Shown here one piece after another: positions 40,954 through 55,932 of a stretch of 64,000 bases of DNA (position 1 is its first letter; the number at the start of each line of letters is the position of its first letter). The notes beneath the pieces are model-generated. The model had not been told where the DNA came from. It was given only the letters and a program-made list of their open reading frames with translations, and searched no databases. The stretch lies in NCBI RefSeq assembly GCF_000374025.1, contig NZ_KB893178.1:1-64000 (forward strand), written 5' to 3'. The DNA comes from Spirosoma panaciterrae DSM 21099. GTDB taxonomy: Bacteria > Bacteroidota > Bacteroidia > Cytophagales > Spirosomataceae. The translations under genes and the position numbers were made by a program.

Positions 40954-43356
40954 TTAGTTCCTGCCAGTGCCTTGTCGGGCTGGGGGCGGAGTGGTCTGCT
41001 TCTGTTGTTGCATAGGGTTAGGGCCCTGTGGACCAAAGCCGCGTTGCTTGAACAACTGAAAACGCGTGGGCTGCGATACCCTTGGGAACGAGTTGTTCTC
41101 AGTGTCAATATCCGCAATTTCCTGGAATGGATCGAGTGTCCATTGCTTCACCTTTTTATTGGTCGCAATGACTTTTTTGACCGACACATCGTTAAAACGC
41201 CAGATTTCGGCCGGGAATCGGGCTACTGAATCGGTGCCATCCTCAAACTCCATCCGAATGATAACGGGCATTGGCAAACCACCTTTGTTCTTCAGCGATA
41301 AGGTATAGTAGTTTGTACCCGCGCTTTTTTCGAGTGTAGCCCGTTCCGATTCACTAAGCGTAGCCAGGTAATCCTGATACTTCTTCTTGTCGTTTTCCGT
41401 TACGGCATACGGATCGTAGCTATTGTAAAAATCTTTCATCGTCGAATCCTTCGCCACCACGGTTTCAGCTTTCGTAGCGGCATCCCGCTGTTTGCTGATG
41501 GTGCCCGCCCGACGCATGGCCTCTTCTTTAGCGGCTGCTTTGGTCGCTACCGGATCGCCCGAATCAACCTGAAACCAATCGACTTCAACCAGGTCCTGGT
41601 CAACGGGTTCAACGCCATAGAACCAGCCTTTCCAGAACCAGTCCAGATCGACGCCCGACGCATCTTCCAGCGTCCGGAAAAAGTCGGCAGGCTCGGGTGT
41701 TTTGAACGCCCAACGACGTGCGTACTCTTTGAAGGCGTAGTCGAACAGTTCGCGGCCCATCACTGTTTCGCGCAGGATGTTGAGGGCGGTGGCAGGTTTG
41801 GCATACGCATTGGGTCCCAGGCTGATTACGTTATCCGACGAGGTCATGATGGGCGACAGTACCGACTTATCTGATTTCATATAATCGGTAATATATTGCG
41901 GCTCACCCCGACGGCTTGGGAAATCATAATCCCATTCTTTTTCAGCCAGATACTGGCAGAAGGTGTTTAAGCCTTCGTCCATCCAAGTCCACTGCCGTTC
42001 GTCGGAGTTGACGATCATTGGAAAGAAATTGTGCCCCACTTCATGGATAATTACCCCGATCATGCCCGCTTTGGTTTGTGCCGAGTAAGTACCATCGGGT
42101 TCGGGACGGCCGCCATTGAACGAAATCATTGGGTACTCCATACCGCCACCGGCTGTAGCATGACACGAGATAGCTACCGGATACGGATATTTGATGGTTC
42201 GGTTACCATATGATTTGAGGGTGTGCTCAACAACTCGGGTTGAATACTGGCCCCAGAGCGGATTGCCCTCTTTCGAGTAAAATGACATACTCCAGATTTT
42301 GTGACCGTCGCCATAAACATCCGTTTGCATGGCATCCCAGATAAATTTACGACTGCTGGCAAAGGCAAAGTCACGCACATTCTGCGCGGCAAACACCCAG
42401 GTCTTTTTCGCTTTTGTATCGCCCGGCTTGGCTTTTTCAGCCGCTTCGGCTTCGGCCTGGGTTACGATAACAACTGGTGTTTTTGACGTGGCCGCCTGCG
42501 CCAGGCGTTTTTGCTGGGTTGCACTCAGGACCTGCTTGTAGTTCTGGCACTCCCCCGTAGCCCCAATCACATGGTCGCTGGGAGCGGTGATGGCTACCTT
42601 ATAGTTTCCAAAGATGAGTGTAAACTCGCCCTGACCCAGAAACTGCTTGTTTTGCCAACCCGTCACATCGCTGTAGGAGCAAAGGCGGGGGAACCAGTGG
42701 GCGATGAAATAGTTATAGTTGCCATCTTTCGGAAAAAACTCCATGCCGCTCCGACCGTAATATTCGGTAACGAAGTAGTTCCAGTCGACGTTGAACGAAT
42801 AGGTGCCTCCGGGTTTCAGAGCCGTAGGCAGATCGATCCGCATCATCGTTTGGTTGATGGTGTATTTCAGATTAGTACCTGTCTTCGCATCTTTAACCGC
42901 CGTGATTTTATAGCCGTACTTGTCGCTAGCCTGCTGCTGACTGCGCTCACGAACCGAAGTAAGGTTCTGCAACTGGGTAAAACTCATACCACTTTCGCTG
43001 ACGCCACCTGTACGGGTTATGCTGCCCGTTGATCCTTTGGCAAATAAGTTTTGATCGAGTTGCAACCAGATGAAAGGTAGTTCGTCGGTCGAATTGTTGT
43101 GATAAGTAACCGTTTCTGAACCAATAATTTTCTGGTTAGCATCGTCAAGTTCGACCTTGATGTCGTAATCGGCGCGGTTCTGAAAATAGTCCTTGCCGGG
43201 GGCACCTGCGGCCGTACGGAACGTGTTGGGCGTAGGCAACATGGGCCCAAGTTGCTCAAAACGATTGTTGGCGTTTTGTGTTGATGGAGCCGGAGCCTGG
43301 GCAAACAGTGTGGCCGACCAAAGGGTGAACCCGACTGCTACCATTACTTTTTTCAT
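40954..43356 (-). CDS. M1-family metallopeptidase (downstream paralogue)
   Basis: The 800-residue product has a signal peptide (MKKVMVAVGFTLWSATLFAQ) and an N-terminal beta domain with YHNNSTDELPFIWLQLDQN. The exopeptidase-type block is AGGGMEYPMISFNGG. The zinc site HEVGHNFFPMIVNSDERQWTWMDEGLN, near residue 438, is HExxH with the third ligand Glu 19 residues later. The catalytic domain ends with LDWFWKGWFYGVEP, and a proline/glutamine-rich tail closes the protein. It should remove N-terminal residues from peptides in the periplasm or outside. It follows the second paralogue by 25 bp and is probably co-transcribed with it. Confidence 0.88.
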   Translation of the reverse strand: MKKVMVAVGFTLWSATLFAQAPAPSTQNANNRFEQLGPMLPTPNTFRTAAGAPGKDYFQNRADYDIKVELDDANQKIIGSETVTYHNNSTDELPFIWLQLDQNLFAKGSTGSITRTGGVSESGMSFTQLQNLTSVRERSQQQASDKYGYKITAVKDAKTGTNLKYTINQTMMRIDLPTALKPGGTYSFNVDWNYFVTEYYGRSGMEFFPKDGNYNYFIAHWFPRLCSYSDVTGWQNKQFLGQGEFTLIFGNYKVAITAPSDHVIGATGECQNYKQVLSATQQKRLAQAATSKTPVVIVTQAEAEAAEKAKPGDTKAKKTWVFAAQNVRDFAFASSRKFIWDAMQTDVYGDGHKIWSMSFYSKEGNPLWGQYSTRVVEHTLKSYGNRTIKYPYPVAISCHATAGGGMEYPMISFNGGRPEPDGTYSAQTKAGMIGVIIHEVGHNFFPMIVNSDERQWTWMDEGLNTFCQYLAEKEWDYDFPSRRGEPQYITDYMKSDKSVLSPIMTSSDNVISLGPNAYAKPATALNILRETVMGRELFDYAFKEYARRWAFKTPEPADFFRTLEDASGVDLDWFWKGWFYGVEPVDQDLVEVDWFQVDSGDPVATKAAAKEEAMRRAGTISKQRDAATKAETVVAKDSTMKDFYNSYDPYAVTENDKKKYQDYLATLSESERATLEKSAGTNYYTLSLKNKGGLPMPVIIRMEFEDGTDSVARFPAEIWRFNDVSVKKVIATNKKVKQWTLDPFQEIADIDTENNSFPRVSQPTRFQLFKQRGFGPQGPNPMQQQKQTTPPPARQGTGRN

Positions 43357-43381
43357 AGGATGCTTAGGTTAATAGAGATGA

Positions 43382-45772
43382 TTAATTTCGGCCACTGCCT
43401 TGCCGGGCAGGAGATGACTGACGCTGTTGTTGCATTGGATTCTGTCCGGCGGCTGCTCCTGGCCCTTGCCGTTGCTTGAAGAGCTGGAAGCGGGTGGGCC
43501 GGGCTACCCGGGGGAATGAATTGTCTTCTGTGTTAATATCCGCAATTTCGTAGAATGGATCGAGTGTCCATTGCTTTACCTTTTTACTGGTCGCAATGAC
43601 TTTTTTGACCGACACATCGTTGAAGCGCCAGATTTCGGCTGGAAAGCGAGCTACCGAATCGGTGCCGTCTTCAAACTCCATTCGTACAATCACGGGCATC
43701 GGTAGCCCTCCTTTGTTCTGTAGCGACAGGGTGTAGAAGTTTGTACCTGCTTCGGCCAATAAACGTTCTTCGGCCGTCAGCGTAGCCAGATAGTCCTGGT
43801 ACTTTTTCCGGTCCTGATCGGTTACAGCGTAGGGGTCGTATCGGTTGTAGAAGTCACGCATGGTGCTGTCCTGTGATACAACTGTCTGGTCTTTGCTGAG
43901 TGCGTCCCGTTGTTTGCTGATCGTATTGAGTTTGCGCTGGGCTTCCTTGCGCGCTTCGGTTTTAGAAATTTCCGGATTTTGAGAGTCGGCCTGGAACCAG
44001 TCGACTTTTACTAACGATTGATCGACTGGTTGTACTCCATAGAACCAGCCTTTCCAGAACCAGTCCAGATCAACGCCCGATGCATCTTCCAGCGTCCGGA
44101 AAAAGTCGGCCGGTTCAGGGCTTTTGAACGCCCAACGACGTGCGTACTCCTTGAAGGCGTAATCGAACAGTTCACGACCCATTACCGTTTCACGCAGGAT
44201 ATTCAGACCCGTAGCGGGCTTCGTATAGGCATTTGGCCCGAACGTATTCCGGGAAATGTTGTCCGAGCTACTCATAATGGGCACCTGCTGGGTCGAATCG
44301 AGCTGCATGTAGGGTACAATGTACTGTGGATCAATGCCATGCGCCGGGAAGTTGGCGTCCCATTCGAGGCAGGCCAGCCCTTCCAGAAAGCTGTTCAATC
44401 CTTCGTCCATCCACGACCATTGCCGTTCGTCGGAGTTCACGATCATCGGGAAAAAGTTATGGCCTACTTCGTGAATAACCACCGAGATCAGGAAGTTTTT
44501 GGTGCCTTCCGAATACGTACCATCCTCGAGCGGCCGGGCTCCGTTGAAGCTAATCATCGGATATTCCATACCGCCAACCGGACCGTGAACCGAGTACGCT
44601 ACCGGATACGGATAGGCAATTGTCCGGCTCGAATACGAACGCAACGTATGAGCCACAAGCCGGGTCGAATACTGTCCCCAGAGCGGGTTAGCTTCTTTCG
44701 GATAAAGCGACATGGCCCACACCCGTTTGCCTTCTACGTTGGGTTGCAAAGCGTCCCAGATGAACTTGCGGCTGCTGGCAAACGAAAAGTCACGCACATT
44801 ATCGGCTTTGTAAATCCAGGTTTTATTACCCGTTGGTTTGCCTTTTTCAGCAGCCTGAGCTTCGGCCTGCGTAACAATGAGTACCGGGTTCTCTCCTGGT
44901 TTATCGCCTTTGCCCTTGGCTTCGTTCCAGCGCTTTTGCTGCGTAGCGGTCAATACCTGCGTCGGATTCTGGAGTTCGCCGGTAGCGCCAACAATATGGT
45001 CGTTTGGTACGGTCAGGGCCACTTTATAATTGCCGAAGATCAGCGTGAATTCCCCTGTTCCCAGAAACTGCTTGTTCTGCCAGCCAGTTACGTCGCTGTA
45101 GGCGCAAAGGCGAGGGAACCACTGAGCAATTTCGTAAATGTAGTTGCCATCGGCTGGGAAAAACTCATAGCCCGAACGGGCACCGACAGCCTTGACGTCC
45201 ACAATTTTAAAATTCCAGTCGATGGAAAAGCTTACCGATTTGCCGGGAGCAACCGGCTGGGACAGGTCAATCCGCATCATCGTCTGGTTGATGGTATACC
45301 GAAGCGGTTTGCCTGCCGCATCACGCACCGAGGTGATCTTATGGCCGTAGTCTTTCGTAGCTAAATCGCCCCCCTGGTTAAGCTGCTGGAACGACATACC
45401 CCGGTCCGAATTAATGCTGTTTGTCCGCGAGGAATTGCCAATGGCGTCGGGCCGAAACAGGTTCTGATCGAGCTGTAGCCACAGGTAGGGCAGAACATCG
45501 CTCGAATTGTTGTGGTAAGTAATGGTTTCGGAGCCGGTTATCTTCTGAGCAGCGTCGTCAAGGGTCGCTTTGATGTCGTAATCAGCGCGGTTCTGGAAAT
45601 AGTCTTTTCCAGGAGCACCAGAGGCTGTGCGAAATGTATTTGGAGTGGGCAGTAATGGGCCGAGTTGCTCAAAGCGGTTGTTAGCATGCTGGGTGCTTGG
45701 GGCCGTCGGTTGGGCCCAGGCAAATCCGGCCGAAATCGCTAAAGCCGAAATCAGCAAAATTATCTTTTGCAT
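43382..45772 (-). CDS. M1-family metallopeptidase (upstream paralogue)
   Basis: The 796-residue protein is very similar to its neighbour from signal peptide to tail. It has MQKIILLISALAISAGFAWAQ, GPVGGMEYPMISFNGA, HEVGHNFFPMIVNSDERQWSWMDEGLN and LDWFWKGWFYGVQP. Near the N terminus the segment KDYFQNRADYDIKATLDDAAQKITGSETITYHNNSSD is nearly the same in both. It is a tandem duplication in which both zinc sites are preserved. The differences lie mostly in surface loops, such as a shorter linker before the zinc domain. It is the first of the two genes in transcription order. Confidence 0.88.
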   Translation of the reverse strand: MQKIILLISALAISAGFAWAQPTAPSTQHANNRFEQLGPLLPTPNTFRTASGAPGKDYFQNRADYDIKATLDDAAQKITGSETITYHNNSSDVLPYLWLQLDQNLFRPDAIGNSSRTNSINSDRGMSFQQLNQGGDLATKDYGHKITSVRDAAGKPLRYTINQTMMRIDLSQPVAPGKSVSFSIDWNFKIVDVKAVGARSGYEFFPADGNYIYEIAQWFPRLCAYSDVTGWQNKQFLGTGEFTLIFGNYKVALTVPNDHIVGATGELQNPTQVLTATQQKRWNEAKGKGDKPGENPVLIVTQAEAQAAEKGKPTGNKTWIYKADNVRDFSFASSRKFIWDALQPNVEGKRVWAMSLYPKEANPLWGQYSTRLVAHTLRSYSSRTIAYPYPVAYSVHGPVGGMEYPMISFNGARPLEDGTYSEGTKNFLISVVIHEVGHNFFPMIVNSDERQWSWMDEGLNSFLEGLACLEWDANFPAHGIDPQYIVPYMQLDSTQQVPIMSSSDNISRNTFGPNAYTKPATGLNILRETVMGRELFDYAFKEYARRWAFKSPEPADFFRTLEDASGVDLDWFWKGWFYGVQPVDQSLVKVDWFQADSQNPEISKTEARKEAQRKLNTISKQRDALSKDQTVVSQDSTMRDFYNRYDPYAVTDQDRKKYQDYLATLTAEERLLAEAGTNFYTLSLQNKGGLPMPVIVRMEFEDGTDSVARFPAEIWRFNDVSVKKVIATSKKVKQWTLDPFYEIADINTEDNSFPRVARPTRFQLFKQRQGPGAAAGQNPMQQQRQSSPARQGSGRN

Positions 45773-45992: not shown

Positions 45993-47402
45993 ATGCTTTT
46001 TACCAGCTTTGATTTTTTTGTTCTGGTAGTTATCACCTTTGTTCTCTATTATTTACCGCTACTGAATCGGTGGCAGGTACTGATTCTTATACTGGCCAGT
46101 TTGGTATTTTATTCGGTCAATCAGGCGAATCTACTCTGGCTGCTGCTGCTTTCGGTAAGTATCAACATCGTATCGAGCTATTGCGTCATATATGGACGGG
46201 CTGATTTACGCCGATTTCATGCCATTTGGGGTGTAGTAGCCAACCTGAGTATTCTCTGCTTTTTCAAATACGGACCATTACTAAGTCGCACGTTTTTACC
46301 TGCCGATACATCATTGGCTCAAACGCTGGTAGCCTTACCATTACCCGTAGGTATTTCGTTTTTTACCTTTCAGGGTATAAGCCTCGTAGTTGATACGTAC
46401 CGATACCGGGATGTACCTACGTTTCGGTCATTGATTGTTCGGAATTGGGTAAAGCATGCACAAAACGTCTTTTTTTTCAAGGCGTTTTTTCCTCAGCTTG
46501 TTTCCGGGCCGATTGTAAAGGCACACTTTTTTCTTCCTCAAATCAGCCGTAAATATCTTTCCGACATTAAATGGGATGCGTGCTTTCGAGCCTTGGTTGT
46601 CGGATACTTTTTAAAAACGGTAGTTGCCGATAACCTGAAAGATTATACCGCCCTCATCGTCTATCCGTATTTCGAGGGCTATTCATCGCTCACACTGGTT
46701 GGCTTACTCTTCGGATATTCAATGCAAATCTTTGCTGATTTTGCTGGTTATTCACTGATTGCCATTGGGCTGGCCGGATTGTTTGGGTATGATTTCCCAA
46801 TCAACTTCAATTTCCCTTATATAGCCACTTCGTTTTCCGACTTTTGGCGACGCTGGCACATTTCCCTGTCGAGTTTTCTGCGTGAATATCTGTATATACC
46901 CTTAGGGGGAAATCGGCATGGGGCTTTTCGAACCTATCTGAATCTGATGCTGACCATGGTATTGGGCGGACTTTGGCATGGGGCGGCCTGGAGTTATGCG
47001 GTCTGGGGATTTGCACATGGGCTGGCGCTGGCAGTTGAGCGGTTTGTTGATCATCGATTGGCCTCCAGGCCGGGATCTATGGCACAGATCGGTCGTGGAA
47101 TAGTGGTATTTGGCTATGTGACCCTATTGTGGCTACTCTTTAAACTGCCAGATTTTAACCACGTAATCGCTTATTGCCAGGCACTGGTGAATAATGTTCA
47201 CAAGCCCCACGATATGCGGGCGTTGAGTTTGATCGCTCTGTATTCTCTGCCCGTCATTGTATACCATATGCATTATGTGTTGCGGGAGCAAGCGGCTCTC
47301 TATAGGCCTGTTGCCTGGGAGTTCGTGGGGTATGGGCTTATGCTTTTCCTGGTGATTACGAATGCGGGGTCGGAAGGTGTGTTTATTTATTTTCAATTCT
47401 AA
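45993..47402 (+). CDS. MBOAT-family O-acyltransferase (AlgI-like)
   Basis: The 469-residue polytopic protein starts MLFTSFDFFVLVVITFVLYYLPL, typical of AlgI-like members. It has FFKAFFPQLVSGPIVKAHFFLPQ, FADFAGYSLIAIGLAGLFGYDFPINFNFPYIATSFSDFWRRWHISLSSFLREYLYIPLGGNR and the histidine block GGLWHGAAWSYAVWGFAHG. This is the core MBOAT active site. These enzymes move an acyl group across the inner membrane to acetylate exported polysaccharides. The stop codon overlaps the next gene's start (TAATG), so the two proteins are made together. Confidence 0.92.
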   Translation: MLFTSFDFFVLVVITFVLYYLPLLNRWQVLILILASLVFYSVNQANLLWLLLLSVSINIVSSYCVIYGRADLRRFHAIWGVVANLSILCFFKYGPLLSRTFLPADTSLAQTLVALPLPVGISFFTFQGISLVVDTYRYRDVPTFRSLIVRNWVKHAQNVFFFKAFFPQLVSGPIVKAHFFLPQISRKYLSDIKWDACFRALVVGYFLKTVVADNLKDYTALIVYPYFEGYSSLTLVGLLFGYSMQIFADFAGYSLIAIGLAGLFGYDFPINFNFPYIATSFSDFWRRWHISLSSFLREYLYIPLGGNRHGAFRTYLNLMLTMVLGGLWHGAAWSYAVWGFAHGLALAVERFVDHRLASRPGSMAQIGRGIVVFGYVTLLWLLFKLPDFNHVIAYCQALVNNVHKPHDMRALSLIALYSLPVIVYHMHYVLREQAALYRPVAWEFVGYGLMLFLVITNAGSEGVFIYFQF

Positions 47403-48274
47403 TGGTTCGGAAGGCCGTTCTCACAACATTACTTCTTCTACTGCTTTACAGTCTGTTTATTTATGCCTTTCAGGGACAGATCCATCGCACGGGCCTGACC
47501 GTCCAGCAGAATAATATCGTCAAGGCCGAGGAGTTCCTTTACGAAAATGGCCAGAAGGCCGATACCATTGTGGTGGGGTCGTCGATGAGTAACCGACTGC
47601 TGTTCGATAGTCTGCCCGGTCATTACTACAATCTGGCGCTTGAAGGGCTGTCGTCGGCCGATGGCCTTGGCCTGATCGTTCGGGCAAAGCATCGGCCACG
47701 ATTGGTCCTGATTGAAACCAATAGTATGGACCGTTTGCCCGATACGGCTTTTTCGGAGGCTTTAACCAAACCTGCCCTGAGTGTTATTCGGAAATACATG
47801 CCGCTGACCCGGTTGAAGTATCAGCCGGTAGGGGTTGTAAAAGCGTTGATTCGTGACTGGAGTGCTGAAAAGCGATCGACGGTCGAAACAGAAACAATCG
47901 ATACCTCATTCGTATCCAAATTGATCCAGGCCCGGCTGATTGACATGAACCGGATTCCGCCGGAGAACGAAATGCAGGCGAAGATCGATGTGTCGGCTGC
48001 CTATATCAAAAGCTTGCAGGCGTCTGGAACACAGGTGATTTTCTTCGAAATGCCGACCGATCCAAGAGTGCGGAATACCATTCTGTCGGGACGGGTTCGG
48101 AAACTGGTAGGATCAACGTTTCCGGAGTCTGCATACCCGTATGTCCAGTTCCCGGCTGATTTTTACCAAACAACCGATGGGGTTCACCTACCTTGGAGCG
48201 AATGTGCCCGGTACACGCGATACTTGTATACGCAGTTGAGCCAATCGTCGGTTCGGTTGACAGAAGTTCGCTAA
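47402..48274 (+). CDS. SGNH-type acetyltransferase partner of the MBOAT protein
   Basis: The 290-residue product has one N-terminal membrane helix (TLLLLLLYSLFIYAF). A periplasmic SGNH-like domain follows, with TIVVGSSMSNRLLFDSLPG near residue 58 (Ser in GSSMS), and a C-terminal TTDGVHLPWSECARY with the Asp-x-x-His pair. The pattern resembles the AlgJ/AlgX/PatB-type partner that receives the acetyl group from an MBOAT protein and passes it to the polysaccharide. Its start codon overlaps the MBOAT stop (TAATG), strong evidence for a two-component system. The polysaccharide is unknown. Confidence 0.7.
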   Translation: MVRKAVLTTLLLLLLYSLFIYAFQGQIHRTGLTVQQNNIVKAEEFLYENGQKADTIVVGSSMSNRLLFDSLPGHYYNLALEGLSSADGLGLIVRAKHRPRLVLIETNSMDRLPDTAFSEALTKPALSVIRKYMPLTRLKYQPVGVVKALIRDWSAEKRSTVETETIDTSFVSKLIQARLIDMNRIPPENEMQAKIDVSAAYIKSLQASGTQVIFFEMPTDPRVRNTILSGRVRKLVGSTFPESAYPYVQFPADFYQTTDGVHLPWSECARYTRYLYTQLSQSSVRLTEVR

Positions 48275-49464: not shown

Positions 49465-50079
49465 TTATACCGCATTAGCAGGCCAGTCAATGACAAAAGC
49501 CCCATAGTAGCCATGATGGCTCAGGCTAACCGGAATAACCGTTGGCTGGCCTGATGGTTGGGCAATGATCAATTCAGGAACGCCATCGTCCTGTTGGCTT
49601 AGGTAAATAGTGGCGTTGGGAGTGGATAATTTTCTGGAACAATACTGAAGTAGCTTTTGCCGGACCTGAGCCGATTGATACGAATGGTCTGTGCATTCGA
49701 GCGGGATAATGTGCTGGTAAAAATTAGAAGGATTGGCTACGGCAAAAGCGAAACTCGTTATATAGTTTGAAGTGAGTAGGGTTTTTGTCTGGTAAGTAAT
49801 TCCATAAAAAACGCTGCCTGTGGCTTCGGTTTCGGTTATAGATGTCAGTTGACAGCTAATTTTCTGGGGAGCGAAACAGCGTAGTCTGGTTTGACGGAAA
49901 GTAGCTTTGTAGGCACTTTCTTTCATGCTCCAGAGCATCCAGACTATCTGTTCGGGATTAGTTGCCGTATCGATAAGGTGTTGCTCCTGGAGGGTAAAAA
50001 TCTTTTGTATATAGCCTTTCCGCTGCCAGTTGCTTTCTGTTCGGGCGCGGGTTAGATCGACAATATCGTTGCCAATCAT
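49465..50079 (-). CDS. 4'-phosphopantetheinyl transferase of the polyketide operon
   Basis: The 204-residue protein has the Sfp/AcpS superfamily motifs IGNDIVDLTRAR at the start and WMLWSMKESAYKATFRQTRLRCFAPQ near residue 48. These bind magnesium and CoA. It transfers the phosphopantetheine arm from CoA to an acyl carrier protein. It overlaps the ACP gene by four bases (50076-50079), so the enzyme is likely to activate that ACP. It is the last gene of the eight-gene operon. Confidence 0.88.
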   Translation of the reverse strand: MIGNDIVDLTRARTESNWQRKGYIQKIFTLQEQHLIDTATNPEQIVWMLWSMKESAYKATFRQTRLRCFAPQKISCQLTSITETEATGSVFYGITYQTKTLLTSNYITSFAFAVANPSNFYQHIIPLECTDHSYQSAQVRQKLLQYCSRKLSTPNATIYLSQQDDGVPELIIAQPSGQPTVIPVSLSHHGYYGAFVIDWPANAV

Positions 50080-50333
50080 TTGGCTTCCAGTTTCTGCCTG
50101 ATAATGTCAATGGCCGAGCCAACCGTCAGCATTCGCTCCATCGACTCATTATCGATCTCAATATCATAGGCTTCTTCCACATCCAGCGCAATATCGACCA
50201 GATTGGCTGAGTTGATTTTCAGGTCTTTAATAAAATCGGTGTCTTCAGTCAGGTTCTGAAAAGCCTGTTCATCCTGAACGTAGGGCTTGACGATTGTCTT
50301 GAGGGTTGTAATGAGTTCGTCTTTGGTTTCCAT
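50076..50333 (-). CDS. Dedicated acyl carrier protein
   Basis: The 85-residue protein has four predicted helices and the phosphopantetheine serine at Ser42 in INSANLVDIALDVEEAYDIEI. The usual DSL motif is replaced by NSA, an uncommon variant that may tune recognition by its partner enzymes. It lies between the ketosynthase and the phosphopantetheinyl transferase genes, so it probably carries intermediates made by this operon rather than serving general fatty-acid synthesis. Confidence 0.88.
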   Translation of the reverse strand: METKDELITTLKTIVKPYVQDEQAFQNLTEDTDFIKDLKINSANLVDIALDVEEAYDIEIDNESMERMLTVGSAIDIIRQKLEAK

Positions 50334-50346
50334 AACAATCTGCGTT

Positions 50347-51621
50347 CTATCCGTGATTGAATTTTTTTAAAATGACACAGGCATTCACATCGCCAAAGCC
50401 AAAGTTAGCTTTTGCAATTACCTGAATGTCCTTGTGAATGGCCTGCTTCAGTATTTTGTCTGAACTGATGAGCGACGTAATTTCAGGATGAGGGTTTTCG
50501 GTGTTAATGGACGGGTAAATAAATCCATGATTTAGCTCTAACACCGCTGCTACGCACTCCACACTACCAGCTGCACTCAGGCAATGCCCCACCATCGATT
50601 TCAGCGAGTTGATATATGGAAAATCATCTCCCCTTCGGCCCAGCGCGTCGCACCAGGCGCTTACTTCGGCAGGGTCTTTACTCGTTGCCGTTAAATGCCC
50701 GTCGATGACATCAACCGCTGAGGGGAGAATCTGAGCCTGTTCCAGCGCCATCTGAATACAGCGACTTACAGCAACTGGATTCGGAGCCGTCATGGTTCCT
50801 CCTCCCCGCTGACCACCCGAATTGACATGGCCGCCCAGCACCTCGGCGTAAATGGTTGCGTTTCGGGCCAGTGCGCTTTCCAATGATTCAAGTACCAGAG
50901 CCCCTGCTCCGCTGGCCGGAACAAACCCACTGGCGGTGGCACTCATCGGGCGCGACCCCTGTTCGGGGGTTTGATTAAATTGATAAGGGAGTACACGCAT
51001 GGCATCGAATCCTCCCCAGATGTAAGGTCCGTGGTCGTTACAACTCCCCGCCAGCATCCGTTTCGCCTGACCCGACGCAATACGGTCGTAGGCCATCATG
51101 AGTGCTTCGGTACCCGTGGCACAGGCCGAGGAGTTGGCACTGATCTGATTGCCGCAGCCCAGCATTCCAGCCAGGTACGCACTGACGCCACTGGTCATGG
51201 TTTGCACAACGGCTGTGCTACCCAGTCGCCTGACCTGTCCCTGATCGACTTTGTAAATGGCCTCCCGAATCTTATCGATCCCTAGAATACCCGTACCAAA
51301 CACGATTCCGCTTTCCCAGTCGGGTTCGGCGCCTGCCACCGGAAGGCCAGCGTTCTGCCAGGCTTCCATACCCGCAATAACCCCGTAAATAATGCCGCTG
51401 CTGTTGAGCTGGTGGAGTTGTAACTCGCTAAAATATTGATGCTTGTGTGCTTCGGTGATCGGTGGAATGCCCCCGATCTGACAGGAGAATTTCAGATCGG
51501 CTAATTCCTGATGAAACGCAATACCGCTTCGCCCTGCCCGTATAGCTTCCAGAAATTCGGGAACGCCAACCCCATTGGGAGCCACAACGCCCAAACCAGT
51601 AATAACGACTCGGTTACGCAT
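50347..51621 (-). CDS. Beta-ketoacyl-ACP synthase (FabF-like) of the polyketide operon
   Basis: The 424-residue ketosynthase has the complete catalytic set: Cys167 in ANSSACATGTEAL, His309 in IDGHLTATSKDP and His346 in SLKSMVGHCLSAAGS, with Lys341 just before the last. The start RVVITGLGVVAPNGVG and the end KANFGFGDVNACVILKKF are standard. It condenses acyl-ACP with malonyl-ACP. It overlaps the dehydratase gene by eight bases and lies directly upstream of the ACP gene. The HLTAT sequence replaces the common HGTST motif; this variation suggests a specialised substrate. Confidence 0.9.
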   Translation of the reverse strand: MRNRVVITGLGVVAPNGVGVPEFLEAIRAGRSGIAFHQELADLKFSCQIGGIPPITEAHKHQYFSELQLHQLNSSGIIYGVIAGMEAWQNAGLPVAGAEPDWESGIVFGTGILGIDKIREAIYKVDQGQVRRLGSTAVVQTMTSGVSAYLAGMLGCGNQISANSSACATGTEALMMAYDRIASGQAKRMLAGSCNDHGPYIWGGFDAMRVLPYQFNQTPEQGSRPMSATASGFVPASGAGALVLESLESALARNATIYAEVLGGHVNSGGQRGGGTMTAPNPVAVSRCIQMALEQAQILPSAVDVIDGHLTATSKDPAEVSAWCDALGRRGDDFPYINSLKSMVGHCLSAAGSVECVAAVLELNHGFIYPSINTENPHPEITSLISSDKILKQAIHKDIQVIAKANFGFGDVNACVILKKFNHG

Positions 51622-52060
51622 GATTTTTTGATTTCATCATTCCGGCAATAGTGCCCCGACAAACCAGTTCGCCGTTGCTGTTCAGCATTTCGACCTTACA
51701 CTTTAACTTATGAAAGCGGAAATAGTCTTTTGTGGATCGAACAAGAACGGTTTCGCTTGGGAAAACAGGTCGGAAAAAATCGACTTGTGTGGAGGTAAGA
51801 GCTATTTCCAGGTCGTTGTCCAGTGCATCGGTCGCTAAAAAGATGCCCAGACAAACAACACCGATCTGCGCCATCACTTCGGTCAGAATGACTCCCGGCG
51901 TTACGGGCCTATTGGCAAAATGACCCTTGTAAAACGCTGAATCTTCAGGAAAGGTGTAGCTGCCTTCCACTCCGTTTTCATCAACGGCATGCAGTTTGTC
52001 AACAAACAGAAACGGTTTGCTGTAGGGTAATCGGGCGATGATTTGATCGAACTGCTGCAA
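51614..52060 (-). CDS. 3-hydroxyacyl-ACP dehydratase, FabZ-like
   Basis: The 148-residue hot-dog protein has the FabZ active-site block FYKGHFANRPVTPGVILTEVMAQIGVV, with His47 and Glu61. The start LPYSKPFLFVDKL is typical of FabZ. It removes water from 3-hydroxyacyl-ACP. No ATG fits the N terminus, and the best start is TTG at 52060, seven bases after the reductase stop codon. The gene lies between the reductase and ketosynthase genes. Confidence 0.85.
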   Translation of the reverse strand: MQQFDQIIARLPYSKPFLFVDKLHAVDENGVEGSYTFPEDSAFYKGHFANRPVTPGVILTEVMAQIGVVCLGIFLATDALDNDLEIALTSTQVDFFRPVFPSETVLVRSTKDYFRFHKLKCKVEMLNSNGELVCRGTIAGMMKSKNHA

Positions 52061-52067
52061 GGGCTAG

Positions 52068-52865
52068 TTATTGAAGGTGTTCGCCACCCGTCACTGGAAC
52101 GACGGTTCCATTGATCCAGGCGGCTTCATCTTTACACAATAGATACGCAACATTGGCGATGTCGGTTGCCTGGGTCGTCCGCGCAAACGGATTTCGCTGC
52201 TGGCTATGAGCAAGTAAGGCGTCGGAGCCGGGAATCATACGCAGAGAAGCCGTATCCGTAACACCTGCCAGGATGCAATTGGACCGAATACCTTTGGGGG
52301 CTAGTTCCAGCGCAATGCTCCGGGAAATGGCTTCCAGCGCGGCTTTGGCAGCCGAAACAGCCGCATAATTTTTCCAGGCTCTGCTGCTGCCTTCGCTCGT
52401 AAAACTAATCACACGGGCATCAGATGCAAACAAATTGGCTGATAGCAGTGCTTTTGTCCAATCATACAGGCTTATGGCCATCGCGTCAATCGTCAACTGA
52501 AAATCGTCATGCTGCAATACCGGCTGATGTTCGGCTACCATCGGCTTTAGATTGCCTTTGGCAAGACTATGGATCAAAGTGCGTACGGTGCCCCGATCAC
52601 CCAATAGCTCTTTTAAGTCGGCCATAACAAAACTGCGTTTTTCGGCATTCGTTGCATCCAGATTGTAGTGTTTGACTAGAACACTACTGGTCTGCATTTG
52701 AGTGAACTCGGCTTCAACGGCGGGCTGATCGGCTTTCCGGGTACGATGTACGATGCAGAGGTTCATGCCGTGCTGCGCCAGTTTGTGCGCCGTAGCCAGC
52801 CCCAGTCCTGAACTGCCACCCAGCACAACGGCCCAATAGTTCAGCCCAGCAAATTCCTTTACCAT
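52068..52865 (-). CDS. SDR reductase, enoyl-ACP reductase (FabL/FabI)-like
   Basis: The 265-residue SDR has the cofactor motif VVLGGSSGLGLATA and a SLAKGNLKPM loop like that of enoyl-ACP reductases. The catalytic residues are Tyr167 and Lys174, spaced Y-x6-K as in FabI and FabL and not Y-x3-K as in ketoreductases. The end is WINGTVVPVTGGEHL. It would reduce the enoyl-ACP made by the dehydratase. A beta-ketoacyl reductase is not seen in the operon, so general FabG may serve, or this enzyme may do both steps. It overlaps the PKS gene by seven bases. Confidence 0.75.
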   Translation of the reverse strand: MVKEFAGLNYWAVVLGGSSGLGLATAHKLAQHGMNLCIVHRTRKADQPAVEAEFTQMQTSSVLVKHYNLDATNAEKRSFVMADLKELLGDRGTVRTLIHSLAKGNLKPMVAEHQPVLQHDDFQLTIDAMAISLYDWTKALLSANLFASDARVISFTSEGSSRAWKNYAAVSAAKAALEAISRSIALELAPKGIRSNCILAGVTDTASLRMIPGSDALLAHSQQRNPFARTTQATDIANVAYLLCKDEAAWINGTVVPVTGGEHLQ

Positions 52866-53911
52866 TGCAGTAGAACCCGTTGCGCTGAAAAACCCGGACC
52901 AAAACTGAGCATCAATCCATACGAATCTTTTTCGGGCTGGCGTTCCATAAATCGCTCCAGCACGTAAAGTACAGTGGCGCTCGACATGTTGCCGTACAGG
53001 CGCAGGACTTCTCGGGTATCATCAATATTCTTGCCCAATTTCCCAAAAAGCTCCTGTACAACTTCCACAATTTTGCGGCCTCCCGGATGAAAAATCAGGT
53101 GCGAGATTTGTTCGATAGCCAGTTTGTTTTTTTCTAGAAATGGGAAAATAATATCTGAAAAGTGGGCCGCAATGGTTTCAGTAACCGACTTGTCGAGAAC
53201 CATTTGTAGGCCTGTATTGGTCAGATCGAATCCCATCAGGTGAGTCGCGTCGTAGAAATGGTACATTTCCTCCGCCAGAATTTCAGGACCTGAGTCGTTG
53301 TCGTTGGCCGAAAGGAGCACACAAGCCGCACCATCGCCAAAAATAGCCGCACTAACGATGTTGGCCATCGAATAATCGTCCAGTTGGAAGGTGGCTGTTG
53401 GTGATTCAACGGCCAGTAAGGCCGCCCGCTTTCCTGGATTGGCTTTCAGAAAATTCTTCGCATAGATAATCCCCGAAATACCAGCCACACAGCCCATTTC
53501 GGTGACGGGGAGCCGCACAATATCCTGCCGCATCTGCATACTGTTGATCAGGTAGGCATCGAGCGAAGGAATCATAATCCCTGTGCAGCTTACCGTGATC
53601 AGAAAGTCGATGTCGGTAATGGCCCAATCGGTTTTGGCTAATGCACTGGTGAGGGCAGTTTCGGCCAGTTTGATGGATTCGCGGGCGTAGAGGGCATTTT
53701 TTTCTTCAAAAGAGGTTTTGGTAAATACCTCCGTAGGCCCCATAATGGAATACCGTCGGTCGACAGCCGCGTTTTCAAAGATCTTTTTGACTTTCCGCTG
53801 AAACCGCGTATCCTGACCTTCCAGCCACTGATTCAGAAAGGGTAAAATATCGGAGGTATCCCGCCAATTGGCGGGTAAGGCTTTCGCTACTGACGTAATT
53901 TTTACTGACAT
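52859..53911 (-). CDS. Type III polyketide synthase (chalcone/stilbene synthase family)
   Basis: The 350-residue enzyme has the catalytic triad of the family: Cys141 in EMGCVAGISGI, His275 in IFHPGGRKI and Asn308 in RLYGNMSSATVLYVLE. VSCTGIMIPSLD, FGDGAACVLL and the final LSFGPGFSAQRVLL are also diagnostic. These enzymes extend an acyl starter with malonyl-CoA and cyclise the chain to resorcinols, pyrones or similar rings. The operon supplies a reducing acyl-ACP pathway that could make the starter. It overlaps the methyltransferase gene by 10 bases. Confidence 0.93.
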   Translation of the reverse strand: MSVKITSVAKALPANWRDTSDILPFLNQWLEGQDTRFQRKVKKIFENAAVDRRYSIMGPTEVFTKTSFEEKNALYARESIKLAETALTSALAKTDWAITDIDFLITVSCTGIMIPSLDAYLINSMQMRQDIVRLPVTEMGCVAGISGIIYAKNFLKANPGKRAALLAVESPTATFQLDDYSMANIVSAAIFGDGAACVLLSANDNDSGPEILAEEMYHFYDATHLMGFDLTNTGLQMVLDKSVTETIAAHFSDIIFPFLEKNKLAIEQISHLIFHPGGRKIVEVVQELFGKLGKNIDDTREVLRLYGNMSSATVLYVLERFMERQPEKDSYGLMLSFGPGFSAQRVLLQW

Positions 53912-54621
53912 AGGTTTTTAATAATCCATTGATAGCGGAAAGCCCATTTCCAGCGAATACGGTAATTAGCTAGCTGGAGTTGCCGGGAATATCGTTCTAA
54001 CTCACTTTTTTTGAAACCTCGCAAAATGGAAATGAGTCCATCTTCTCTTGATAGATCGTTGAGCTGGAAAACGAAGCAAATCAGTTGGAACAGTCGATAG
54101 GCCAGCGCACTCCGGTGCAGATCATTAATAACGACGCCTAACCGGGCTTTGTTTGCCAATAAGGCCATTAATGAGAGAATATCGGTATCCGAAAAATGAT
54201 GTAACGTCAGGGTACATACGGCAATGTCGTACTGGAGCGAGGCAAAGCTCGCATCGAACACATTCTGAACGGAATACGAAATGGTCGGATAGTTTCTAGA
54301 GCAGAGCTGCGCGTGGGCAATGGTGTCGGGATTGGCGTCGATGCCTAGTATCTTGACGGGCAAGGTTTTGTGTCTGGCGAAGTCGGCAATGGCGCGGCAC
54401 ATATCCCCGTTTCCACAGCCAATATCAATGATGGTTATTGGTGTATTTGGGGTAGTGTTTTCAAGCAGGACCTGTAGGCCATCAAGGGTGATTTTATTGC
54501 CACCTAGCCACCGATTAATGGTCGCAATTTTATCCAGTGCGTCACGTAAATCAGCGCCAGCCAGCTCGAAATCGTCCAGTGCTTCTTCCTGAGTTGTACG
54601 GTGCGAGGTATCTAAGGGCAT
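53902..54621 (-). CDS. Class I SAM-dependent methyltransferase
   Basis: The 239-residue protein has motif I ITIIDIGCGNGDMCRAIADFA near residue 62, then ILGIDANPDTIAHAQ, and VCTLTLHHFSDTDIL in the position of motif IV. NDLHRSALAYRLFQLICFVFQLN near residue 150 is a hydrophobic substrate-side segment. It probably methylates the product of the polyketide synthase on oxygen or carbon. It overlaps both neighbouring genes by 10 bases, so all three are translated together. Confidence 0.85.
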   Translation of the reverse strand: MPLDTSHRTTQEEALDDFELAGADLRDALDKIATINRWLGGNKITLDGLQVLLENTTPNTPITIIDIGCGNGDMCRAIADFARHKTLPVKILGIDANPDTIAHAQLCSRNYPTISYSVQNVFDASFASLQYDIAVCTLTLHHFSDTDILSLMALLANKARLGVVINDLHRSALAYRLFQLICFVFQLNDLSREDGLISILRGFKKSELERYSRQLQLANYRIRWKWAFRYQWIIKNLCQ

Positions 54622-55757
54622 TGTTCAATAGCCAATGGCTTCCCATGGGTTTGTTTAATAATCAAAGGTAAAAGACCAGGCGTCAGTTGCAGACTTTTTA
54701 GCATAACCGACGTAGCCAGTGGATGTTGCAAAACGGATTGGAGAAGCCGTCCGGCAGTTAGTCGTTTCGTAAACTCGCTGCGCCAGGCAAGTGTGTAGCT
54801 TTTCTCCAGAGCCGCTCTGTCGTTTAGTCGTCCGTTGAAATAGGCAATAAGCCGCTCCGATACCAGTTTTGCACTATGAATAGCCATTGCCATGCCGTTG
54901 CCGCATAAGGGGTGAATCAGCCCGGCCGTATCGCCACACATGAGTATATGGCTATCAACGGGTTGCTTGGGGGCGAATGAAATCTGGCTGATTACTAATG
55001 GCTTTTCAAATACTAGCTCAGCGTTTGAAAAGAAATGGGCCAGGTGCGGATTTTGGGAAAGAACCTGCTGTTGGAAGGCATCGATGTTTTTGTAGGTTTT
55101 AAAGCTGTCGTAGGTAGCCAGATAGCAAGCGTTGACCAGACCATTTTCGACCTGACACAGGCCACAATACCCGCCATGAAAGTTATGCAACGATACCAGT
55201 CCGGCTGGGAATTCGGCTTTGTAGTGGGCTTTCACCCCCAGCCAGGGCGATTCTGTTCGGATAAAGGGTCGATCCAACTGTTTATCCAGCAAAGATCGTT
55301 TACCATAAGCACCCAGTGTAATGGTTGAGTGATAGGTTTTACCGGAGGCTGTTTCGATGGTAAATGCATTAGCAGTTTCTTCGAAAAAAACACGCTTTAC
55401 CTCATCCTGAATAATCGTTACCCCAGCCTTGATGGCCGTTTGCGCCAGATGATTATCCAGCGTATATCGGCTTACAGCAAATCCTCCCAGCGGTAAATCA
55501 CTTTCAATGGTATCACCCGACGCAGTACTGAGCGAAAAATGTTGGATTCGGGCCGGATTTAATCCATCGACCGAAACGCCCAATTGCCGAAGATAGGGTA
55601 GCACTTCGTTGGAGATGTACTCCCCACAGACCTTATGATGTGGATACGCCTGTTTCTCAAATAAGGTCACTCGCAGATTATGCCGGGCAAGATGAATTCC
55701 GGCTGTCAATCCGGCCAGACCACCACCAATAATCACTATGTCGGCATCGGGTAGCAT
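54612..55757 (-). CDS. FAD-dependent oxidoreductase (geranylgeranyl-reductase/hydroxylase type)
   Basis: The 381-residue flavoprotein has the N-terminal Rossmann motif DIVIIGGGLAGLTAGIHLARHNLRV, the KVCGEYISNEV block and the FAD ribityl-binding motif CGDTAGLIHPLCGNGMAMAIHSA near residue 285. This combination is typical of the geranylgeranyl-reductase and aromatic-hydroxylase branch of the family. It may hydroxylate the polyketide ring or reduce double bonds. It is the first gene of the polyketide operon. Confidence 0.88.
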   Translation of the reverse strand: MLPDADIVIIGGGLAGLTAGIHLARHNLRVTLFEKQAYPHHKVCGEYISNEVLPYLRQLGVSVDGLNPARIQHFSLSTASGDTIESDLPLGGFAVSRYTLDNHLAQTAIKAGVTIIQDEVKRVFFEETANAFTIETASGKTYHSTITLGAYGKRSLLDKQLDRPFIRTESPWLGVKAHYKAEFPAGLVSLHNFHGGYCGLCQVENGLVNACYLATYDSFKTYKNIDAFQQQVLSQNPHLAHFFSNAELVFEKPLVISQISFAPKQPVDSHILMCGDTAGLIHPLCGNGMAMAIHSAKLVSERLIAYFNGRLNDRAALEKSYTLAWRSEFTKRLTAGRLLQSVLQHPLATSVMLKSLQLTPGLLPLIIKQTHGKPLAIEQCP

Positions 55758-55856: not shown

Positions 55857-55932
55857 TTTGTCATGCTGAGGAACGAAGCATCTTCGGTAATTAAAATACT
55901 GGCGAAGATGCTTCGTTCCTCAGCATGACAAA
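55857..55932. repeat. Perfect 30-bp-arm palindromic repeat
   Basis: Thirty bases at 55857-55886, containing GCTGAGGAACGAAGCATCT, are repeated as a perfect reverse complement at 55903-55932, with a 16-nt loop. It lies between the alpha-2-macroglobulin stop and the polyketide operon start. Sequences with GCTGAGGAACGAAGCATC are known to me as widespread repeats in several bacterial groups. The perfect arms suggest recent spread or strong selection on the RNA hairpin. Confidence 0.85.

Follow-up and report, generated by a model that had tools for sequence, protein, structure and literature searches.

The eight-gene operon

The first 64,000 nucleotides of contig NZ_KB893178.1 of Spirosoma panaciterrae DSM 21099 (RefSeq assembly GCF_000374025.1; genome of 8.13 Mb in 72 contigs), referred to here as the window, contain an operon in which a type III polyketide synthase (T3PKS) is encoded together with acyl-chain enzymes and a private acyl carrier protein (ACP). 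All eight open reading frames (ORFs) are open and lie on the minus strand, running from 55757 to 49465 in the 5' to 3' order flavoprotein (FAD), methyltransferase (MT), T3PKS, FabL-like short-chain dehydrogenase/reductase (SDR), FabZ, FabF-like ketosynthase (KS), ACP and 4'-phosphopantetheinyl transferase (PPT). Successive genes overlap by 10, 10, 7, 8 and 4 bp or are separated by gaps of 7 and 13 bp. The initial annotation of this DNA had described eight packed genes, overlapping or at most 13 bp apart; their coordinates, frames and strand are confirmed, and the family names that it gave to all eight agree with Pfam and NCBIfam.

The T3PKS (52859–53911) contains the chalcone/stilbene synthase N- and C-terminal domains (Chal_sti_synt_N and Chal_sti_synt_C), both above the Pfam cut-off, and is the sole PF00195 protein above cut-off in the genome. 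Its catalytic triad, Cys141-His275-Asn308, is intact and is invariant in 86/86 aligned rows, five KASIII-like (ketoacyl-ACP synthase III) rows included. The named-genome scan, from which the best-scoring 80 of 569 relatives were kept, is the basis of every count of 80 given below, and the uniformity seen in these counts is biased towards close relatives for that reason. Within this set the T3PKS is closest to Spirosoma, with 85% identity to S. telluris. An AlphaFold2 model built with 16 rows has a predicted local distance difference test score of 88.2, and Foldseek searches with it return CylI first (template modelling score 0.91) and Pks11 next (0.92), the top match being a CylI structure bound to a beta-ketoacyl N-acetylcysteamine thioester (beta-ketoacyl-SNAC). 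The ArsB Trp281/ArsC Gly284 rule did not permit a choice between resorcinol and pyrone rings, as the alignments included no ArsC chain.

In a FastTree phylogeny of the T3PKS, a fully supported branch separates 90 operon rows from 40 others, and presence of the SDR needs five changes on the tree. The five KASIII-like rows were left out of it by a motif filter. A gene 22–25% like the T3PKS is found upstream of the operon in L068, L077, L085, L100 and L102 of the best 80 relatives; the two that were scanned, those of L068 and L077, are KASIII enzymes scoring above the FabH cut-off.

The remaining enzymes comprise an acyl-chain set and two putative tailoring proteins. The SDR (52068–52865), an optional part of the operon, finds its best NCBIfam match in FabL (NF005975; 146.8 bits, under the cut-off of 328), and its nearest solved structure is also a FabL (PDB entry 3oic). 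It has the spacing typical of enoyl-reductase SDRs, Y167-x6-K174, shared by the aligned 3oic and distinct from the Y-x3-K of FabG; both residues are invariant (35/35 rows). FabZ (51614–52060, with a TTG start) is a hot-dog dehydratase above the PF07977 cut-off, whose catalytic His47 and Glu61 are present in 79/79 aligned rows. The KS (50347–51621) matches the N- and C-terminal ketoacyl-synt domains above cut-off and has Cys167-His309-His346 in 77/77 aligned rows. It scores 274.6 bits on the FabF equivalog TIGR03150, under the cut-off of 493.75, and is separate in a tree from the two primary FabF rows included. The same genome encodes two further full-length FabF-like KSs, with 31–32% identity, and a 2238-residue frame part of which matches a KS; no DarB above cut-off was found in the genome. 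The ACP (50076–50333) falls 0.5 bit short on Pfam PP-binding (20.3 bits, cut-off 20.8) and is recognised by ACP chains in the PDB and by 12 NCBIfam ACP models at E ≤0.001, each under its own cut-off. Its phosphopantetheine-bearing Ser42, in an INSA motif, is present in 67/67 aligned rows. The PPT (49465–50079) scores 53.1 bits on PF01648 (ACPS; cut-off 25) and is probably dedicated to the private ACP.

The flavoprotein (54612–55757) is an FAD-dependent oxidoreductase of the geranylgeranyl-reductase/aromatic hydroxylase superfamily, with 52.7 bits on FAD_binding_3 (cut-off 22) and 107.3 bits on GG-red-SF, under the cut-off of 158.8. It probably catalyses a ring hydroxylation or quinone-forming step. 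The MT (53902–54621) is a UbiG/UbiE-like S-adenosylmethionine (SAM)-dependent enzyme above the Methyltransf_25 cut-off; its SAM motif (D66, G68, C69, G70, G72) is present in 80/80 aligned rows, and its probable role is O- or C-methylation of a phenolic ring.

The initial annotation was right that the operon holds no ketoreductase gene. From this absence, and from variant motifs in the KS and ACP, it had proposed an unusual starter, which is not supported here. A FabG above cut-off is encoded elsewhere in the genome (C24:388496, 345.4 bits; the operon SDR reaches only 88 bits on that model), the catalytic residues are invariant, and the motifs are common to the lineage. All 77 operon KS rows have GHLTAT, and all 10 related cassettes that lack the operon-type T3PKS have GHLT[ASG]T, so the motif marks lineage; the ACP motif is INSA in most cassettes, with an LDSF form in L218 and L219. 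Decay of the KS and ACP was considered as a cause of the odd motifs and rejected on the same invariance of catalytic residues and sharing of the motif with other cassettes. The variable SDR is a better hint, namely that chain saturation would differ between species.

Conservation and distribution

The flavoprotein, MT, T3PKS and FabZ genes occur in operon order, with strand kept, in all 80 best-scoring relatives. KS and ACP genes follow in 78, the contigs of L062 and L105 ending first; a PPT is recognised in 66, and the SDR is present in 35 and absent from 45. These relatives are Bacteroidota, including Spirosoma, Siphonobacter, Flavobacterium, Aequorivita, Winogradskyella, Polaribacter, Pedobacter and Chitinophaga. 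Genes flanking the operon vary between genera, which identifies the operon itself as the conserved unit. The KS is split into two or three ORFs in L033 and L112, and the flavoprotein and MT of L112 are each split into two; these are probably frameshifts or sequencing errors.

Samples of the class and the phylum give the same arrangement. A T3PKS match at E 1e-20 is present in 76 of 295 class-sample genomes, 16 of which have a T3PKS at least 50% identical to that of the operon. At these 16 loci, taken with 1.5 kb flanks, flavoprotein, MT, T3PKS, FabZ and KS genes are adjacent without exception, and an SDR is present at 10. The KS is found at E 1e-90 in 21 of the 295 genomes, namely the 16 with the operon T3PKS and five others. 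Among 395 Bacteroidota genomes of the phylum sample, 33 have the T3PKS (E 1e-80) and 38 the KS (E 1e-90); all 33 T3PKS genomes also carry the operon-type KS, within 1.6 kb. The two overlapping samples together comprise 39 distinct genomes with the pair, in which 447–1529 bp lie between T3PKS and KS. The recurring order and the strict pairing of T3PKS and KS indicate that the association is not due to chance.

The possibility that SDR-less genomes keep the enzyme elsewhere found no support in six such genomes: none has a relative of the operon SDR at E 1e-20 or better, in a check that did not extend to their primary enoyl reductases. Plasmid records yielded matches in 187 of 72,556, all under 60% identity, the best among those listed being approximately 35%.

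More distant T3PKSs (class sample, <50% identity) have different surroundings. Of 60 such loci, 40 were fetched; MT genes are present at 30, flavoprotein genes at 28 (some of these matches are weak, at 33 and 43 bits), SDR-like genes at seven, and KS and ACP genes at three each, with neither FabZ nor PPT at any of the 40. A few of these loci lie near contig ends, where missing neighbours may reflect truncation. The acyl set is thus mostly absent from distant loci and appears as an addition to an MT-FAD-T3PKS core. This triad is the common form, and the acyl set is added to it in one T3PKS clade. At L120, L121 and L124, a T3PKS-MT-FAD triad is accompanied by KS and ACP genes several kb away, and in the KS tree the L120 and L124 enzymes do not group with the cassette lineage.

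Around the operon in S. panaciterrae, a hexapeptide-repeat protein gene lies downstream and a 1846-residue ORF lies upstream, across a gap of 256 bp. The gap contains a perfect 30-bp inverted repeat with 16 nt between its arms (window 55857–55932). A 26-base piece of the arm has eight copies in the genome, one with a single mismatch, in four facing pairs; the repeat is a low-copy dispersed hairpin. Promoter and terminator scans returned fewer sites than in shuffled sequence. On the plus strand nearby (window 45993–48274) are a gene for a DltB-like membrane acyltransferase (133 bits, under the DltB cut-off of 375) and, following it, a 290-residue ORF with no NCBIfam match. Two tandem ORFs of 800 and 796 residues (window 40954–45772) are clearly similar by eye in their translations and probably represent a duplication.

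Related cassettes at other loci

The KS matches of the class and phylum samples that stand apart from the operon correspond to 10 loci in nine genomes, all of which were fetched. These cassettes lack an operon-type T3PKS and contain an ACP in 10/10 cases, FabZ in 9/10, PPT in 7/10 and SDR in 6/10; the available sequence of L190 begins at the KS. Gene order varies, the ACP being first in L186 and L188, and a KASIII gene standing inside the cassette in L189.

Eight of the 10 cassettes lie near DarB/DarH, FeeM, GT2/GNAT or GT2/PhyH genes. L187 and L216 encode DarB (634.8 and 614.7 bits, cut-off 550) and DarH (453.7 and 443.1 bits, cut-off 300). In L189 (G005:C84:1-5930) a FeeM-family gene (104.8 bits, cut-off 27) stands beside SDR, KS, KASIII, FabZ, ACP and PPT genes, which would give a different acyl product a private fatty-acid set that is almost complete. 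L217, L218 and L219, from another family of the phylum, have FabZ-KS-ACP beside GT2 and GNAT-like genes, the latter as weak matches (24.6 to 30.5 bits, cut-off 20.7), and are possibly acylated glycolipid clusters. GT2, PhyH and asparagine-synthase-like genes lie near L190 and L191. No evident partner was found among the four neighbours of L186 that were scanned, and none is evident from the layout of L188, which is the same and was not scanned. Several of the partner enzymes are expected to use acyl chains, and for BtrH- and FeeM-like enzymes the acyl donor would be ACP-bound. That the cassette is reused beside other acyl users argues most strongly for its role in supplying acyl-ACP. The proposal of the initial annotation, that a private acyl-ACP set is tied to the T3PKS, is well supported both by this reuse and by the occurrence of the KS in every phylum-sample genome (33/33) that has the T3PKS.

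Motifs were assigned by regular expressions, the first of which missed the SDR of L216, the ACPs of L189, L217 and L219, the FabZ of L191, L195, L217, L218 and L219, and several KSs. With revised patterns, the SDR motif and the His motifs of the KSs were recovered in the missed rows; the active-site Cys motif of the KSs of L190 and L191 was unmatched by the pattern. The KS tree was built with 45 of 68 representatives, L154 having failed the row filter. Association with a T3PKS operon needs two changes on this tree, because a group at 50% identity (L193, L194) does not resolve together with the rest. A very long branch (7.95) leads from the cassette KSs to the outgroup rows and is unreliable for depth.

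Proposed pathway and comparison with known systems

Gene content and order, catalytic residues, the strict co-occurrence of T3PKS and KS, and the reuse of related KS/ACP cassettes are direct observations, and the reading that best accommodates them, to which we assign a probability of approximately 0.6, is that the operon makes a phenolic lipid or alkylated quinone from a chain built on the private ACP and fed to the T3PKS. The PPT would charge the ACP, and the FabF-type KS would elongate an acyl chain on it. The beta-keto group would be reduced by the cell's own FabG, after which the operon FabZ would dehydrate and the SDR, where present, would reduce the enoyl stage; given the 45 of 80 relatives that lack the SDR, operon-encoded enoyl reduction is not general. 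The acyl-ACP, or a beta-ketoacyl-ACP from the last KS round, would then be handed to the T3PKS cysteine; this hand-over from ACP to T3PKS is suggested by analogy, CylI and ArsB/ArsC being described in passages of PMC8086630 and PMC6274091 as accepting ACP-bound besides CoA-bound starters. The T3PKS would add malonyl units and cyclise the chain, most likely to a resorcinol or pyrone, whose ring the MT and flavoprotein would methylate and oxidise, presumably in steps following ring closure.

Several observations weigh against this pathway. The operon has no gene for an initiating KASIII, a CoA ligase or a malonyl transferase, so that loading must come from elsewhere. Nothing in the T3PKS sequence indicates ACP binding, and its best NCBIfam model is DpgA (NF042429; 185.7 bits, cut-off 425), a 3,5-dihydroxyphenylacetyl-CoA synthase that uses malonyl starters. 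In one operon that lacks the SDR (G247), the KS frame is interrupted by a stop. L193, at 51% identity, has FAD, MT, T3PKS, SDR, FabZ and KS genes, with no ACP or PPT recognised adjacent to them. Identity of the T3PKS as a DpgA was rejected, since the score is far under cut-off and the same model is matched by 19/19 of a mixed set of T3PKSs and therefore does not discriminate.

An unlikely alternative is that the KS stops at the beta-keto stage, converting a primary acyl-ACP into a beta-ketoacyl-ACP from which the T3PKS, like CylI, completes the ring; FabZ and SDR would then serve an earlier round or the shaping of the chain. The CylI complex as top fold match, the lack of an operon ketoreductase and the frequent lack of the SDR are all consistent with such a route. 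Against it stands FabZ, whose presence in 80/80 relatives with catalytic His and Glu kept implies that hydroxyacyl substrates probably arise.

It also seems improbable that the operon serves two branches, the T3PKS making a small aromatic compound from malonyl-CoA to which the cassette's chain is later joined. Flexirubin, in which a polyene acid is esterified with a dialkylresorcinol according to the passages of PMC3992019, would be the precedent, and the cassettes beside DarB and DarH in L187 and L216, together with DpgA as the best-scoring family model, point in that direction. However, no acyltransferase or ligase that could join the parts was recognised in the operon, and the DpgA match carries little weight for the reasons given above. 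It is very improbable that the cassette merely supplements primary fatty-acid synthesis, the T3PKS using bulk acyl-CoA and the genes travelling together for other reasons: this would suit the classical CoA use of type III PKSs, of which a few use ACP in the account seen in PMC8086630, and the lack of an ACP-binding signature, but it fits poorly with the strict KS-T3PKS pairing, with the presence of a private ACP and a PPT to go with it, and with the recurrence of related cassettes beside further enzymes that use acyl chains.

If the ACP-fed pathway is correct, it defines a testable substrate (the private acyl-ACP) and a likely product class. More tentatively, we propose a portable Bacteroidota acyl-ACP cassette, consisting of FabZ-KS-ACP, usually with PPT and often with SDR, that may serve at least four acyl users: the T3PKS with MT and FAD; DarB/DarH; a FeeM-type N-acyl amino acid synthase; and GT2 with GNAT or PhyH. 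In the operon it would be a dissociated type II set feeding the T3PKS from an ACP. One acyl cassette would then serve several natural-product families, and could be used to control the chain length of engineered phenolic lipids. The proposal would also explain part of the T3PKS clusters that have no assigned product, perhaps a fair part, as the operon type accounts for 16 of the 76 class-sample genomes with a T3PKS match.

The passages available from two Flavobacteriaceae surveys put T3PKS at 9% (PMC7440613) and 10.74% (PMC10734526) of predicted clusters. An Aequorivita 'T3pks-arylpolyene' antiSMASH cluster is mentioned in part of PMC6139392, its T3PKS being 69% identical to a Zobellia protein (data not shown there); named Aequorivita species are among the best 80 of our 569 relatives. 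A table in PMC9100364 links Spirosoma and Flavobacterium T3PKS clusters in general to 'hypocrellin and kanamycin synthesis', with no data in the passages seen. No product for the operon was found in the open-access literature searched, nor in the passages of PMC10608841, PMC10752948, PMC12843772, PMC10233909 and PMC8307928; subscription papers and preprints were outside this scope, and the result is hence provisional.

The core of the operon resembles known phenolic-lipid systems. In Streptomyces, the srs operon combines MT, FAD oxidoreductase and T3PKS genes and makes phenolic lipids and quinones. A T3PKS with adjacent MT and FAD genes is found in the Spirosoma operon and in 80/80 of its best-scoring relatives, and the srs-type likeness drawn by the initial annotation is supported. 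Loci with the core alone are common in the class. The same three functions share one operon in hierridin hidABC and in planctomycetal genomes, according to the parts of PMC10896814 available; expressed planctomycetal T3PKSs make alkylresorcinols there, and the role of the FAD enzyme is left open. All of these are described as three-gene operons, without the KS/FabZ/ACP/PPT set of Spirosoma.

DarB/DarH systems, which make dialkylresorcinols and flexirubin (the latter treated also in a passage of PMC9606717), are accompanied in L187 and L216 by a related SDR-FabZ-KS-ACP-PPT cassette, which lies divergently beside them. However, the ring is formed there by a KASIII-type enzyme, and by a T3PKS in the Spirosoma operon. 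The FeeM-type system of L189 likewise has a private acyl-ACP set, but would make no aromatic polyketide, the acceptor of a FeeM-type N-acyl amino acid synthase being an amino acid.

The closest parallels for the feeding of a T3PKS are the cylindrocyclophane and ars systems. CylI, the top fold match, is fed an ACP-bound chain in the passages of PMC8086630; the cyanobacterial cylindrocyclophane cluster includes the ACP CylB. Its type I PKSs CylD/CylH, its halogenase and its dimerising enzyme have no counterpart recognised in the Spirosoma operon. In Azotobacter vinelandii ars, a private fatty-acid synthase (FAS), the type I enzyme ArsA, is encoded with the T3PKSs ArsB/ArsC, and the acyl chain goes directly from the ACP domain of the FAS to the T3PKS, as described in part of PMC6274091. 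The Spirosoma operon likewise has acyl-making enzymes and their own carrier beside the T3PKS; in contrast to ars it has no type I FAS, its KS, FabZ, SDR, ACP and PPT being separate ORFs, and it lacks a ketoreductase and adds MT and FAD genes. The operon is best read as a phenolic-lipid core of the hierridin/srs type that receives its chains from a portable, dissociated acyl-ACP cassette, and by its gene content would be a widespread variant of known systems such as ars and cylindrocyclophane rather than a new kind.

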